A stretch of DNA of 64,000 bases from Lysobacterales bacterium (GTDB taxonomy: Bacteria; Pseudomonadota; Gammaproteobacteria; Xanthomonadales; SZUA-5), in assembly GCA_019187485.1 (NCBI GenBank), contig JABAQR010000030.1, forward strand, positions 1 to 64,000. The letters run 5' to 3'. Positions 7,929-54,743 of the stretch are shown piece by piece. The notes under the pieces are model-generated. The model made no database searches. It was not told where the DNA came from and saw only the letters and a list, made by a program, of their open reading frames with translations. Each line of letters opens with the position of its first letter. Position 1 is the first letter of the stretch. The position numbers and the translations under genes were made by a program.

Positions 7929-7939
7929 GCAGGAGCGAT

Positions 7940-8030
7940 GTTGGTTTCTGGTGTTGGTGTTGGAAAGAGCCGCGCGTCCGGCATCCGCGGCAAGCCGCTT
8001 TGACCAACACCAACAACCCACACCAACACC
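7940..8030. repeat. Inverted repeat with GGTGTT tandem arms (element A)
   Basis: The left arm at 7950-7963 is G/T-rich (GGTGTTGGTGTTGG) and is answered by the complementary CCAACACCAACA at 8004-8015 and CACCAACACC at 8021-8030. The loop is about 40 bases. It fills the convergent gap between the exported protein gene and recN, and may act as a terminator for one or both genes. It shares architecture but not sequence with elements B to J in this window. Confidence 0.75.
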
Positions 8031-8035
8031 GCTCT

Positions 8036-9788: not shown

Positions 9789-9876
9789 CACGCGGAGACA
9801 ACGCGGAGATACGGAGAGCGCGGAGAAGGCAAGAGCTTCTGCCCAGGATTCGGCTTCTCTCCGCGCTCTCCGCGGC
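9789..9876. repeat. Inverted repeat with CGCGGAGA tandem arms (element B)
   Basis: The left arm (9789-9834) carries repeated ACGCGGAGA-like units; the right arm (9852-9876) is the complement. Positions 9812-9826 and 9858-9872 form a perfect 15-base inverted repeat. The loop is about 30 bases and is followed by CTTTGCGTCC (9876-9885), one unit of the nonamer family seen elsewhere. It lies between recN and hrcA, upstream of the proposed hrcA promoter. Confidence 0.85.
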
Positions 9877-9919
9877 TTTGCGTCCAATGATGGTCCGGAA
9901 CACGGGCGCAAGAGGCGCC

Positions 9920-13753: not shown

Positions 13754-13772
13754 TTGTCGTTTCAGGCAAGTA

Positions 13773-13880
13773 GAGGAAAAAGGGAAATGGAAAAAGGAAA
13801 AAGGAAGGGCAGAAGCGGGGAGTCGCGACCTGGCGGCCTCTTCGCTTGCCCCTTTTCCCTTTTCCCTTTTCCTTTTTCCT
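13773..13880. repeat. Inverted repeat with GGAAAAAGG purine/pyrimidine arms (element C)
   Basis: The left arm (13773-13806) is an almost pure purine tract of GGAAAAA/GGGAAA units; the right arm (about 13850-13880) is CCTTTTTCC/TTTCCC units, its complement. The loop is about 45 bases. The right arm ends 8 bases before the dnaJ ATG, so the region where a Shine-Dalgarno would lie is pyrimidine-rich and could be paired with the left arm. It follows the dnaK hairpin. Confidence 0.85.
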
Positions 13881-13888
13881 GACGCTCC

Positions 13889-32545: not shown

Positions 32546-32657
32546 GCAAAGGACGCAAAGGACGCAAAGGGAAAAAGCAAGGACGCAAAGGAAAGCGAAG
32601 GCCGATCCTGAACTCGCTCTTTTTGCGTCCTTCGCTCCCTTTGCGTACTTTGCGTGC
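32546..32657. repeat. Inverted repeat with GGACGCAAA tandem arms (element D)
   Basis: The left arm has GGACGCAAA at 32551-32559, 32560-32568 and 32581-32589; the right arm has TTTGCGTCC at 32622-32630 and variants TTTGCGTAC (32640-32648) and TTTGCGTGC (32649-32657). The gap between arms is about 20-30 bases. It lies between prfB and lysS, ending 56 bases before the lysS start. Confidence 0.88.
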
Positions 32658-47013: not shown

Positions 47014-47060
47014 TGCTGCGCCCGGCCACACGCCGGGCCCAAACAGCATGGGTTCGCGAA

Positions 47061-47117
47061 GGACGCAAAGGACGCAAAGGACGCAAAGAAGCGCGCTGAC
47101 CGCCTTTCTTTGCGTCC
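47061..47117. repeat. Inverted repeat with GGACGCAAA tandem arms (element F)
   Basis: Three exact direct repeats of GGACGCAAA (47061-47069, 47070-47078, 47079-47087) are followed by TTTGCGTCC at 47109-47117 and a degenerate copy after it. The loop is about 21 bases. It lies between the glycine-zipper gene and serC, 160 bases before the serC start. Confidence 0.9.
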
Positions 47118-47277
47118 GTTGCGCTATTCGCGGACACAAGACTCCTGGCAAGAAGCCGGAAGCGGCGCGCTGAAGGCAATTCCCCGGCAGCCCAATTCAT
47201 TCGAATACACAAGCCTTCCGCCGTTTGCGGGTGCTCCACTATGCTGCGGCGCGTCAAGCCCTCTCTGGAGCTTTCGC

Positions 47278-49662: not shown

Positions 49663-49849
49663 CAGTGAGTAGTGAGTGGTGAGTAGTGAGTAACAGCCGG
49701 CGAGTCCGGCAGACTTCGGCTCCGCCGAAAGCGCGCTTGATCAAGGCATTGCTCGTGCCACTTTCGCTCACCAATGGGGAGTCATTTGCTCCAGCGGAGC
49801 CCACTCGCGGAGCGGCTCTTACTCACCACTCACTACTCACCACTCACTG
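49663..49849. repeat. Inverted repeat with GTGAGTR heptamer arms (element H)
   Basis: The left arm at 49663-49693 is made of about four GTGAGT(A/G) heptamers; the right arm at 49819-49849 is its reverse complement, 28 of 31 positions. The three mismatches are A/G variation in the seventh base of units. The loop is 125 bases and contains smaller hairpins, such as TTCGGC/GCCGAA and CTTGATCAAG (about 49724-49745). The right arm ends 3 bases before the pheA ATG, covering the ribosome-binding position. Confidence 0.92.
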
Positions 49850-52524: not shown

Positions 52525-53840
52525 GCGGATCCGCTGTCGAATATCGACTGCAGCCGGTCTCGCGCGTGGCCGGGCGGATCAGCGTGCCCGGCGACAAGTC
52601 GATCTCCCACCGCGCCGTCATGTTCGGCGCGCTCGCGCGCGGACGCACCGAGGTCAGCGGTTTCCTGCCCGGCGAGGACACCCTGCACACCGCGCAGATC
52701 CTGCGCCAGTTGGGAGTCGCGATCGAGCGATCCGCCGAGACCTCGCTGCGCATCGACGGGGTCGGCCTGCACGGCCTGCGCGCGAGTGCGCAAGTGCTCG
52801 ATTGCGGCAATGCCGGCACCGCGATGCGCCTGCTGGCCGGGCTGTTGTCCGGGCAGCGCTTCGCGAGCACCCTGGTCGGCGACGAATCGCTGTCGCGCCG
52901 GCCGATGCGCCGCGTCATGGATCCGTTGCTGCGGATGGGGGCGTGCATTGCCGGCACGCAGGCGGGTACCGCGCCGCTGCGCATCGAGCCGGCGGAAAAC
53001 CTCCGCGGCATCGACTACAACTGCCCGGTGGCGAGCGCGCAGATCAAGTCCTGTGTGCTGCTGGCCGGCCTCTACGCCGACGGCGAGACCGCGGTCACCG
53101 AACCCGCCGCGACCCGCGACTACACCGAGCGCATGCTCGCCGCGCTCGGCGCCGATGTGGTGGTCGATGGCCTCGCGATCCGCCTGCGCCCGGGCCGCGA
53201 ACTGCAGGCCCAGCCGATTTTCGTGCCCGGCGACTTCTCGTCCGCGGCTTTTTTCCTGGTCGCCGGCGCGATCGCCCCGACGGGCGAAATGCTCATCGAG
53301 AATGTCGGCCTGAATCCGCGCCGCACCGGCCTGCTGGATACCCTGGTCGAGATGGGTGCCGACATCGTGGTGCTCGACCGCCGCGAAATCGCCGGCGAAC
53401 CGGTCGGCGATCTGCGTGTGCGTGCCAGTGCGTTACGCGGCGTCGACGTGCCGGAAGCGCGCGTGCCCGATATGATCGACGAGTTTCCGGCCTTTGCGAT
53501 CGCCGCGGCCTGCGCCGCGGGGCGCAGCAGCGTGCGCGGCGCGCATGAGCTGCGGGTCAAGGAGAGCGACCGCATCGCCGCCACCGCGCGCGGCCTCGCG
53601 ACGCTCGGCGTCGAGGTCGAGGAATTCGAGGACGGCATGGCGATCGAGGGCAGGGCAGACTTCGGCGGCGGGCAGATCGACAGTCGCAGCGACCATCGCA
53701 TCGCAATGGCCTTCGCGGTCGCTTCGCTGCGCGCGCGCTCGGAAATCCGCATCCTCGACTGCGCGAACGTGGCGACCAGTTTCCCGGGCTTCCCGAAGCT
53801 GGCGGCAAGCGTCGGGCTGGACATTGGAGTCTTTGCATGA
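52521..53840 (+). CDS. aroA: 3-phosphoshikimate 1-carboxyvinyltransferase (EPSP synthase)
   Basis: A 439-residue EPSP synthase of the shikimate pathway. Motifs: VPGDKSISHRAVMFGALA, DCGNAGTAMRLLAGLL, MRRVMDPLLRMGA, and HELRVKESDRIAATARGL, with SDHRIAMAFAVA and the end ATSFPGF. DKSISHRA and the missing proline after GTAMR make it more like the class II (CP4-like) than the enterobacterial class I enzyme. It starts within the stop of hisC. Confidence 0.96.
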   Translation: MSGSAVEYRLQPVSRVAGRISVPGDKSISHRAVMFGALARGRTEVSGFLPGEDTLHTAQILRQLGVAIERSAETSLRIDGVGLHGLRASAQVLDCGNAGTAMRLLAGLLSGQRFASTLVGDESLSRRPMRRVMDPLLRMGACIAGTQAGTAPLRIEPAENLRGIDYNCPVASAQIKSCVLLAGLYADGETAVTEPAATRDYTERMLAALGADVVVDGLAIRLRPGRELQAQPIFVPGDFSSAAFFLVAGAIAPTGEMLIENVGLNPRRTGLLDTLVEMGADIVVLDRREIAGEPVGDLRVRASALRGVDVPEARVPDMIDEFPAFAIAAACAAGRSSVRGAHELRVKESDRIAATARGLATLGVEVEEFEDGMAIEGRADFGGGQIDSRSDHRIAMAFAVASLRARSEIRILDCANVATSFPGFPKLAASVGLDIGVFA

Positions 53841-53873
53841 CGCGCCACTTCGCTACCCGCAGGCGCTTTTTGG

Positions 53874-53944
53874 GTCCGCAAAGGACGCAAAGAACGCAAA
53901 GGAAGCCAAAGCCGTCTCCGCTCTTCTTTGCGTCCTTTGCGGAC
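53874..53944. repeat. Perfect 21-base inverted repeat with GGACGCAAA arms (element I)
   Basis: 53874-53894 and 53924-53944 are exact reverse complements over 21 bases, with a 29-base loop. The arms contain GCAAAGGACGCAAAG units, so they belong to the GGACGCAAA family of D and F. It lies in the 222-base gap between aroA and cmk. Confidence 0.95.
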
Positions 53945-54062
53945 AAATGCGCTTCGAATCAGTCCCTTGTCGGATGTTCGGGAGAGCGGGCACAACCCGC
54001 GGCCGAAGATCCCCGGGGTCGCAGGGTGAACCCGTTCCCACGATCGAGACGGGATTGCCGCG

Positions 54063-54743
54063 ATGGCTGACAGCGCCCCCGTCATCACCATCGACGGCCC
54101 CAGCGGCTCCGGCAAGGGCACGATCAGCCGGCTGGTGGCGCGCGCGCTCGGCTGGCATTTCCTGGATTCGGGCGCGCTCTACCGCGGCGTCGGCGTCGCC
54201 GCGCTGCGCGCCGGCATCGACCTTTCCGATGTCGAGGCCATGGCCCGGCTGGCGCTGGACGCCGACATCCGCTTCGAGGACCGCATCGACGGCGAGCCGC
54301 ATGTCTGGCTCGGGAGCGACGACATTTCCAGCGACATCCGCACCGAGGAAGCCGGCCAGGCCGCCTCGAAATCGGCGGCCCAGCCGGCCGTGCGTGCGGC
54401 GCTGCTGCAGAAGCAACGCGACTTCCAGCTGGCGCCGGGCCTGGTCGCCGATGGCCGCGACATGGGAACGATCGTGTTCCCCCAGGCAGAGCTGAAGGTC
54501 TTCCTGACCGCGAGCGCGGAAGAACGCGCCCGTCGCAGGCATAAACAGTTGAGCGAAAAGGGCGTTACGGCTATCCTACCGGCCCTTTTGCGCGAGATCG
54601 AGGAACGCGACCTGCGCGACCGCACGCGGTCGGTAGCTCCCCTCGTCCCCGCAGCGGATGCCCGCACCATCGATTCGACCAGCCAGTCGATCGAGGACGT
54701 GGTCCGCACCGTGCTCGACTGGGCAGCACCGCTGGCGCGCTGA
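54063..54743 (+). CDS. cmk: Cytidylate kinase
   Basis: A 226-residue CMP/dCMP kinase: P-loop GPSGSGKGT, FLDSGALYRGV, VADGRDMGTIVFP and the lid RARRRHKQL. It converts CMP to CDP in nucleotide supply. It precedes rpsA, the standard order cmk-rpsA-ihfB. The ATG at 54063 is used. Confidence 0.97.
   Translation: MADSAPVITIDGPSGSGKGTISRLVARALGWHFLDSGALYRGVGVAALRAGIDLSDVEAMARLALDADIRFEDRIDGEPHVWLGSDDISSDIRTEEAGQAASKSAAQPAVRAALLQKQRDFQLAPGLVADGRDMGTIVFPQAELKVFLTASAEERARRRHKQLSEKGVTAILPALLREIEERDLRDRTRSVAPLVPAADARTIDSTSQSIEDVVRTVLDWAAPLAR

Follow-up and report, generated by a model that had tools for sequence, protein, structure and literature searches.

Element I, a perfect inverted repeat lying between aroA and cmk of a Lysobacterales bacterium, is probably a gene-less, MITE-like copy of an element that carries a GxxExxY gene, in an arrangement resembling that of REPIN/RAYT but without the RAYT. 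It lies in the window, i.e., the whole stretch of 64,000 nucleotides analyzed here (contig JABAQR010000030.1), and is an ordinary copy within its family. The evidence consists of arms shared between gene-less and gene-bearing elements, dispersal of the copies, a site that is empty in relatives, a link between arm type and GxxExxY within genomes, and conserved catalytic residues in the GxxExxY protein.

Element I and its site in relatives

The left arm of Element I, GTCCGCAAAGGACGCAAAGAA, occupies positions 53874-53894 of the forward strand, and its exact reverse complement, the right arm, occupies 53924-53944 on the reverse strand, so that two arms of 21 nt enclose a gene-free loop of 29 nt (53895-53923). 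The pairs that flank the arms are mismatched, both outward (G/A) and inward (C/C). The arm is built of nonamer units of GTCCGC plus CGCAAAG, and the loop opens with a third unit, CGCAAAGGA; left arm and loop together read GCAAAGGAC GCAAAGAAC GCAAAGGAA. Coordinates and arm match thus bear out the perfect 21-base repeat, the 29-base loop, and the nonamer-like units of the original prediction. When the window was replaced by first-order Markov versions (40 of them), each contained on average 5.5 exact inverted repeats of 12 nt with a loop of at most 200 nt, from which a rough extrapolation puts the chance of an exact 21-nt repeat at the order of 1e-5, and Element I is therefore far above chance.

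The aroA stop codon (53838-53840, forward strand) and cmk (54063-54743, forward strand; the frame matches cmk of relatives) are separated by a gap of 222 nt (53841-54062), of which approximately 53841-54047 is read as inserted. In all eight other genomes of the family, arms are absent upstream of cmk (1500 nt searched; 433 nt in G008). The aroA stop, which in relatives is the junction where cmk begins, overlaps the cmk start as ATGA in G005 and G001 and as GTGA in G002 (G001 and G002 from printed sequence), and in G003, G006, and G008 it falls at, or just within, the beginning of the cmk match; the spacing is 76 nt in G007 and 520 nt in G004. Because the two genes overlap or nearly touch in six of the eight relatives, an insertion appears to have pulled them apart here, and the 222-nt gap is, judging from this comparison, a lineage-specific insertion at the junction of aroA stop and cmk start. 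The orthologous site is occupied here and empty in 8/8 relatives, so the arms are recent on the species scale, which upholds one of three origins (recent formation, conversion between arms, or selection) that had been offered for their perfect identity.

Most of the gap looks like a single insertion, since Element I is paralogous to another element of the same genome (C4:83044) and a REP-like palindrome is present in the insertion's outer part. Positions 53852-54024 align as reverse complement to C4:83044 over 183 columns at 70% identity (E 1.2e-14 to 2e-14), and over the arms Element I is also related to C2:56756 and C44:629. The palindrome (54017-54039, reverse strand) resembles the outer parts of C2:56756 and C4:83044 and is the sole match to its pattern in the window, with a chance of 0.01 for a pattern that was itself derived from that place and its paralogues. 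Open frames that run across the arms on the reverse strand (53557-53946 and 53853-54542) encode peptides such as LCVLCVLCG and are likely sources of spurious gene calls.

A dispersed family and its gene-bearing form

A search of the 3.83-Mb genome of this bacterium for a 16-nt core of the arm gave 102 matches, and the reversed control gave none, which agrees with the earlier view of Element I as one member of a class. The full 21-nt arm, allowing at most one mismatch, was found in three of 41 genomes, with 21 copies (10 + 11) in the own genome, 19 in the congener G001, and 58 in G005, which belongs to another genus of the same family; the congener G002 has none. In the genome stretches that were read, 44 clusters of units were called, 16 of which contain an exact inverted repeat of at least 21 nt, the longest having 36. 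Element I is accordingly not the cleanest member of its class, as had been proposed, nor do its perfect arms mark a special copy, since both match the family consensus and those of 16/44 clusters are as long or longer; they are consistent with a fairly recent copy. At least 10 copies form one paralogous group with 71-91% identity over 159-278 columns in the pairwise matches listed, and these matches include sequence outside the arms, so the mobile unit may exceed the arms alone. Two further CGCAAAG elements of the same family, with imperfect arms, lie in the window at 32546-32655 and 47049-47138.

Among the 32 elements of the own genome for which both flanking genes were called, 29 lie between co-directional genes, two between convergent genes, and one between divergent genes, counts that stand without a baseline for this genome. 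Co-directional placement as a mark of operon targeting was considered and set aside, as the pair spanning GxxExxY loci in named genomes is co-directional in 41/52 cases vs 22/31 for neighboring pairs, which falls short of a clear excess.

The gene-bearing form is present in the own genome as an element (C5:7122-7600) in which arms surround an intact GxxExxY gene (PF13366, E 3.9e-39; TIGR04256, E 1.6e-40). It is located between carA and carB, with the carA stop overlapping the GxxExxY start. Its arms are of the same class as those of Element I, with different subtypes: GGTGGACGC in the gene-bearing element and GTCCGC in Element I. In G005 a GxxExxY gene likewise lies between carA and carB, and there the arms are of the GTCCGC type of Element I. 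In the congener G002, the same junction is occupied by a four-helix-bundle gene (PF05635) with GGGACCCG arms on either side, and flank sequence places PF05635 genes of G021, G030, and G010 there as well, the last without visible arms (score 10). Occupation of carA-carB by GxxExxY elements in some genomes and by PF05635 genes in others (L035, L258-L260, L100, L104, and L118) suggests a common insertion hotspot or a long-kept resident site. In the own genome (L035, 1931-3010) the last codons of carA fall inside the arm, giving the tail MEDAKDAKGREGRKVEAK, so that the element has rewritten the end of a host protein.

The arms of resident and dispersed elements behave differently. Among the 15 elements of the GTCCGC subfamily, the two arms of an element score 20.1 against each other vs 22.3 for arms of different elements, and the observed mean is equaled or exceeded in 4990 of 5000 permutations, so arm-to-arm conversion, the second of the proposed origins of the perfect arms, finds no support in this subfamily. 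Six elements of G005 likewise have own arms that are less alike than cross pairs (4984/5000). Over all 50 simple elements the own arms are slightly more alike (22.2 vs 20.1; 8/5000 permutations), which the subfamily ends can explain. At carA-carB, a junction at which the gene-bearing form occurs in many species, GxxExxY loci give 26.1 for own arms and 16.7 for arms of different species (0/10,000 permutations; 16 loci, 15 of them distinct, as L052 and L167 are the same contig), with some bias toward own pairs because the arm segments were selected by their own alignment; changes in spacers and ends are present in both arms there, for example in L177, L205, and L172. Since carA-carB arms change together and the GTCCGC subfamily lacks this effect, or rather reverses it, resident gene-bearing elements appear to keep their arms matched over the long term, and the arms of dispersed copies, by contrast, look as if each had been drawn independently from a family consensus.

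Arms and genes across phyla

GxxExxY, a widespread family with no assigned function, is rarely named in the full-text literature. It was found in 10 of the 41 relatives (17 matches) and in 32 of 200 genomes sampled from the phylum. In 36 of 46 such loci, an inverted repeat scoring at least 14 joins the two 250-nt flanks, compared with 29 of 358 mismatched pairs, in which left and right flanks come from different loci. In named genomes, the best 80 of at least 549 GxxExxY loci were scanned, and of the 71 with both 300-nt flanks, 56 pass the same score, vs 3/266 intervals displaced along these loci and 51/556 mismatched pairs; the other 15 score below 14. These loci come from Pseudomonadota, Bacteroidota, Cyanobacteria, Bacillota, Acidobacteriota, Planctomycetota, Verrucomicrobia, Chloroflexi (Anaerolineae), and others. 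Direct repeats of equal score occur at 23/71 of the named loci, as tandem or neighboring copies give direct repeats too. High direct-repeat scores of the flanks or extra arrays nearby at L049, L063, L187, L189, and L192 suggest neighboring or nested copies, L049 itself scoring low. Plasmids and phages were rejected as carriers, given the near absence of GxxExxY from their records (at E 1e-5, eight of 72,556 plasmid records and none of 50,697 phage records).

Genes of PF05635, an unrelated sequence family, show the same architecture, in that 27/32 loci pass the inverted-arm score, vs 1/116 shifted intervals and 8/310 mismatched pairs. The arms differ with the gene family. The unit period is 8-10 nt in 71 of 72 GxxExxY loci with a clear period (11 in the remaining one), and it is 7 nt in 20 of 26 PF05635 loci (6, 8, or 14 in the rest). 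The motif CRSRRAD occurs at least twice per arm in 35/36 and 38/56 GxxExxY loci, in 4/27 PF05635 loci, and in 6/458 control 52-mers; the exceptions that were inspected have arms of the ACAGGAT type.

Arm type is furthermore linked to the GxxExxY protein itself. Across 92 armed loci, arm similarity tracks protein identity (Mantel r 0.33, 0/1000 permutations), as it does among pairs with less than 50% protein identity (r 0.14, 0/1000), and common descent alone could produce part of this correlation. The array CGCAAAGGACGCAAAGGACG, with at most one mismatch, occurs in 7 of the 200 phylum genomes, and all seven genomes with the CGCAAAGGAC array are among the 32 carrying GxxExxY. Six of the seven belong to one family, in which 26 of 47 genomes, counted over both lists, have GxxExxY, and at this background rate the within-family chance of the overlap is about 0.02. 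For a forward test, whole-genome counts were made of three arm types known to flank GxxExxY genes: all 13 genomes with the pattern in the GxxExxY locus hold extra copies (totals of 7 to 168, with 1 to 4 in the locus), and both genomes with nearly matching arms (L170 and L177) hold copies, 7 and 5, respectively. Genomes whose GxxExxY gene has another arm type gave 0/6, 3/11, and 4/11, i.e., 7/28, and some of these may hold further GxxExxY genes. In G001, 19 arm copies are present yet there is no GxxExxY match, in an assembly that is 77% complete.

The GxxExxY protein and competing explanations

The GxxExxY protein combines the GxxExxY profile with a D...ExK active site, as in PD-(D/E)XK nucleases. 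D66, E76, and K78 are invariant in 15 proteins, as are D61, E71, and K73 in 36, and the structure model (pLDDT 93.9, pTM 0.86) has the PD-(D/E)XK nuclease fold. The nearest fold is that of Cas4 SSO0001 (Z 10.3, 3.3 A over 99 residues; Foldseek E 4.4e-4), followed by other restriction-endonuclease-like proteins and the archaeal Hjc junction resolvase 1gef, whose Z of 7.6 lies in the range below 8 that may signal a common fold alone. The likeness to Cas4/RecB-like and Hjc nucleases is one of fold only, as a search of PDB sequences with GxxExxY gave no match up to E 0.01. Hairpin arms would be a fitting substrate for a nuclease that acts on DNA that is branched or single-stranded.

These features lead to a possible mechanism. 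In the fuller element, an arm of 8-10-nt tandem units is followed by the GxxExxY gene and an inverted arm. The encoded PD-(D/E)XK protein would bind the tandem units of the arms, either as duplex or as an extruded hairpin or cruciform, and would make a cut at that place, with the result that DNA bearing arms is copied, or moves, to sites elsewhere. Copies would settle between genes of the same direction, in the present case at the overlapping aroA stop and cmk start, and those that have lost the gene would retain the arms and rely on the protein in trans, in the way that REPINs rely on RAYT. We infer the binding and cutting of arms by GxxExxY, and its role in the spread of copies, from the sequence patterns described above, and it is comparison between species that suggests movement of the elements.

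The strongest competitor, which we consider unlikely though worth weighing, assigns the making and spreading of arms to host processes, such as template switching at hairpins, RNase III-processed RNA, or recombination, and treats the GxxExxY and four-helix-bundle genes as cargo. Because PF05635 genes sit in the same architecture, the GxxExxY gene might indeed be a passenger, and the sharing even of the carA-carB junction by two unrelated gene families fits this. So do the carA-carB arms, which change together between species, a pattern expected if one arm is copied from the other, and the lack of target-site duplication: 5/62 gene-bearing loci have a 5-nt match, vs a cross-locus expectation of about 3.5, with element ends uncertain by a few bases. 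Nevertheless, both the length of the units and their motif vary with the gene family (8-10 vs mostly 7 nt, and the CRSRRAD counts), arm type tracks protein divergence and the resident gene, and the active-site residues of GxxExxY are kept, all of which speak for an active role of the GxxExxY protein.

Mobilization by a RAYT (Y1_Tnp) transposase, with Element I as a REP/BIME element, is much less probable still. In its favor, the copies are dispersed intergenic hairpins, and Element I shares the REP-like palindrome of its outer part with two paralogues. However, PF01797 has no match in the own genome, which is 99.5% complete, vs matches in 32 of the 41 sample genomes, so there is no resident RAYT at hand, and instead of single palindromes the arms consist of arrays of tandem units, which are linked to GxxExxY. 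A RAYT that was recently lost, or that was supplied earlier, is possible.

Very little speaks for a plain regulatory or terminator hairpin of an aroA-cmk operon beyond the strength of the predicted fold, the transcript of the 222-nt gap folding to -106 kcal/mol (z -4.6) with a 21-bp stem. No promoter-like site and no terminator-like combination of GC-rich stem, short loop, and T run was found in the gap, and in an Rfam search nothing came near the gathering score (best 25.4 bits vs 86); no tRNA genes were found in the window. Dozens of copies exist elsewhere in the genome, and comparison of the aroA-cmk gap across relatives, which had been suggested as a check, revealed no conserved repeat (0/8), so the outcome that would have favored a conserved regulatory hairpin did not occur. 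A side effect of the insertion on cmk expression is possible. Local microsatellite-like expansion of CGCAAAG with inversion and no mobility is the least credible explanation, for although the arms consist of tandem units in variable number, the paralogy of at least 10 copies extends past the arms, over about 160-280 nt with 71-91% identity, and some 200 nt are inserted where the genes of relatives overlap.

Relation to known systems

In REPIN/RAYT (and REP/BIME) systems, a gene present in few copies has palindromic termini that match those of numerous gene-less copies in the same genome. GxxExxY elements share this combination of a gene-bearing form and many gene-less copies, but their gene encodes a PD-(D/E)XK nuclease rather than a Y1 tyrosine transposase, their termini are arrays of 8-10-nt units, and the own genome lacks a Y1_Tnp match. 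Element I also resembles a MITE in being short, gene-less, and dispersed and in having inverted termini in common with a gene-bearing element. It differs from a classical MITE in that target-site duplication was not detected (at gene-bearing loci rather than at Element I itself) and its mobility is putative; moreover, we know of no DDE-type transposase for the GxxExxY parent element.

A further relation is to the intervening sequences (IVS) of 23S rRNA. The IVS of Coxiella burnetii, 428 nt long and called a selfish element, contains an S23p ORF and heptamer repeats (GACAGAT beside the ORF), has a terminal stem of 28 bp, and is excised by RNase III, and an origin via transposition is cited there as a proposal (PMC4990558). 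The likeness lies in a small element with one sense-strand ORF, a long terminal inverted repeat, and short tandem repeats near the ORF. GxxExxY elements differ in lying between protein genes rather than in rRNA, in encoding GxxExxY rather than S23p, and in their 8-10-nt units; Element I itself is no IVS, as it sits between aroA and cmk and not in 23S rRNA, and it has no S23p ORF. PF05635 elements between protein genes are closer kin of IVS than GxxExxY elements are. It is conceivable, though we hold it only tentatively, that elements with GxxExxY and those with PF05635 form two branches of a single unrecognized class of minimal mobile elements, in which inverted arrays of short tandem units surround one gene of about 120 codons or nothing. 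Such elements would move within transcribed operons without a known transposase, possibly via a DNA or RNA hairpin as intermediate, and the resident protein would determine how long the units are; the intervening sequences of 23S rRNA would then be the only members noticed so far.

In the full-text literature, a scope that leaves aside preprints and most subscription journals and so is not proof of novelty, no account of GxxExxY or PF05635 elements between protein genes was found. The name GxxExxY is incidental in PMC8934634, and a search with the letters of the Element I arm returned one unrelated paper only. The GxxExxY-linked class of small elements points to a poorly known kind of selfish DNA. 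If the preferred reading of Element I as a gene-less copy of a GxxExxY element is right, GxxExxY gains a role, dispersed tandem-unit hairpins in many phyla are explained and connected with the long-standing puzzle that rRNA intervening sequences pose, and overlapping operon junctions are seen to be pried apart by such insertions.

The window contains additional inverted arms of other types. At 49665-49848, arms of GTGAGTAGTGAGTGGTGAGTA enclose a 134-nt spacer, and this looks like a gene-less PF05635-type element, because the arm type matches that of a PF05635 gene of the own genome (L253, C6:13905). The inverted GGAAAAAGGG arms at 13767-13881 are similar to sequence flanking another own-genome PF05635 gene (L254, C57:15224), whose arm score is only 10 and which, judged by its flanks, sits between hslV and hslU. 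The inverted TTGGTGTTGG arms at 7933-8034 resemble the arms of L102, a PF05635 gene of the congener G001, and inverted arms of the CGCGGAGA type are found at 9801-9883, the unit also occurring beside a GxxExxY gene in G002 (L050).
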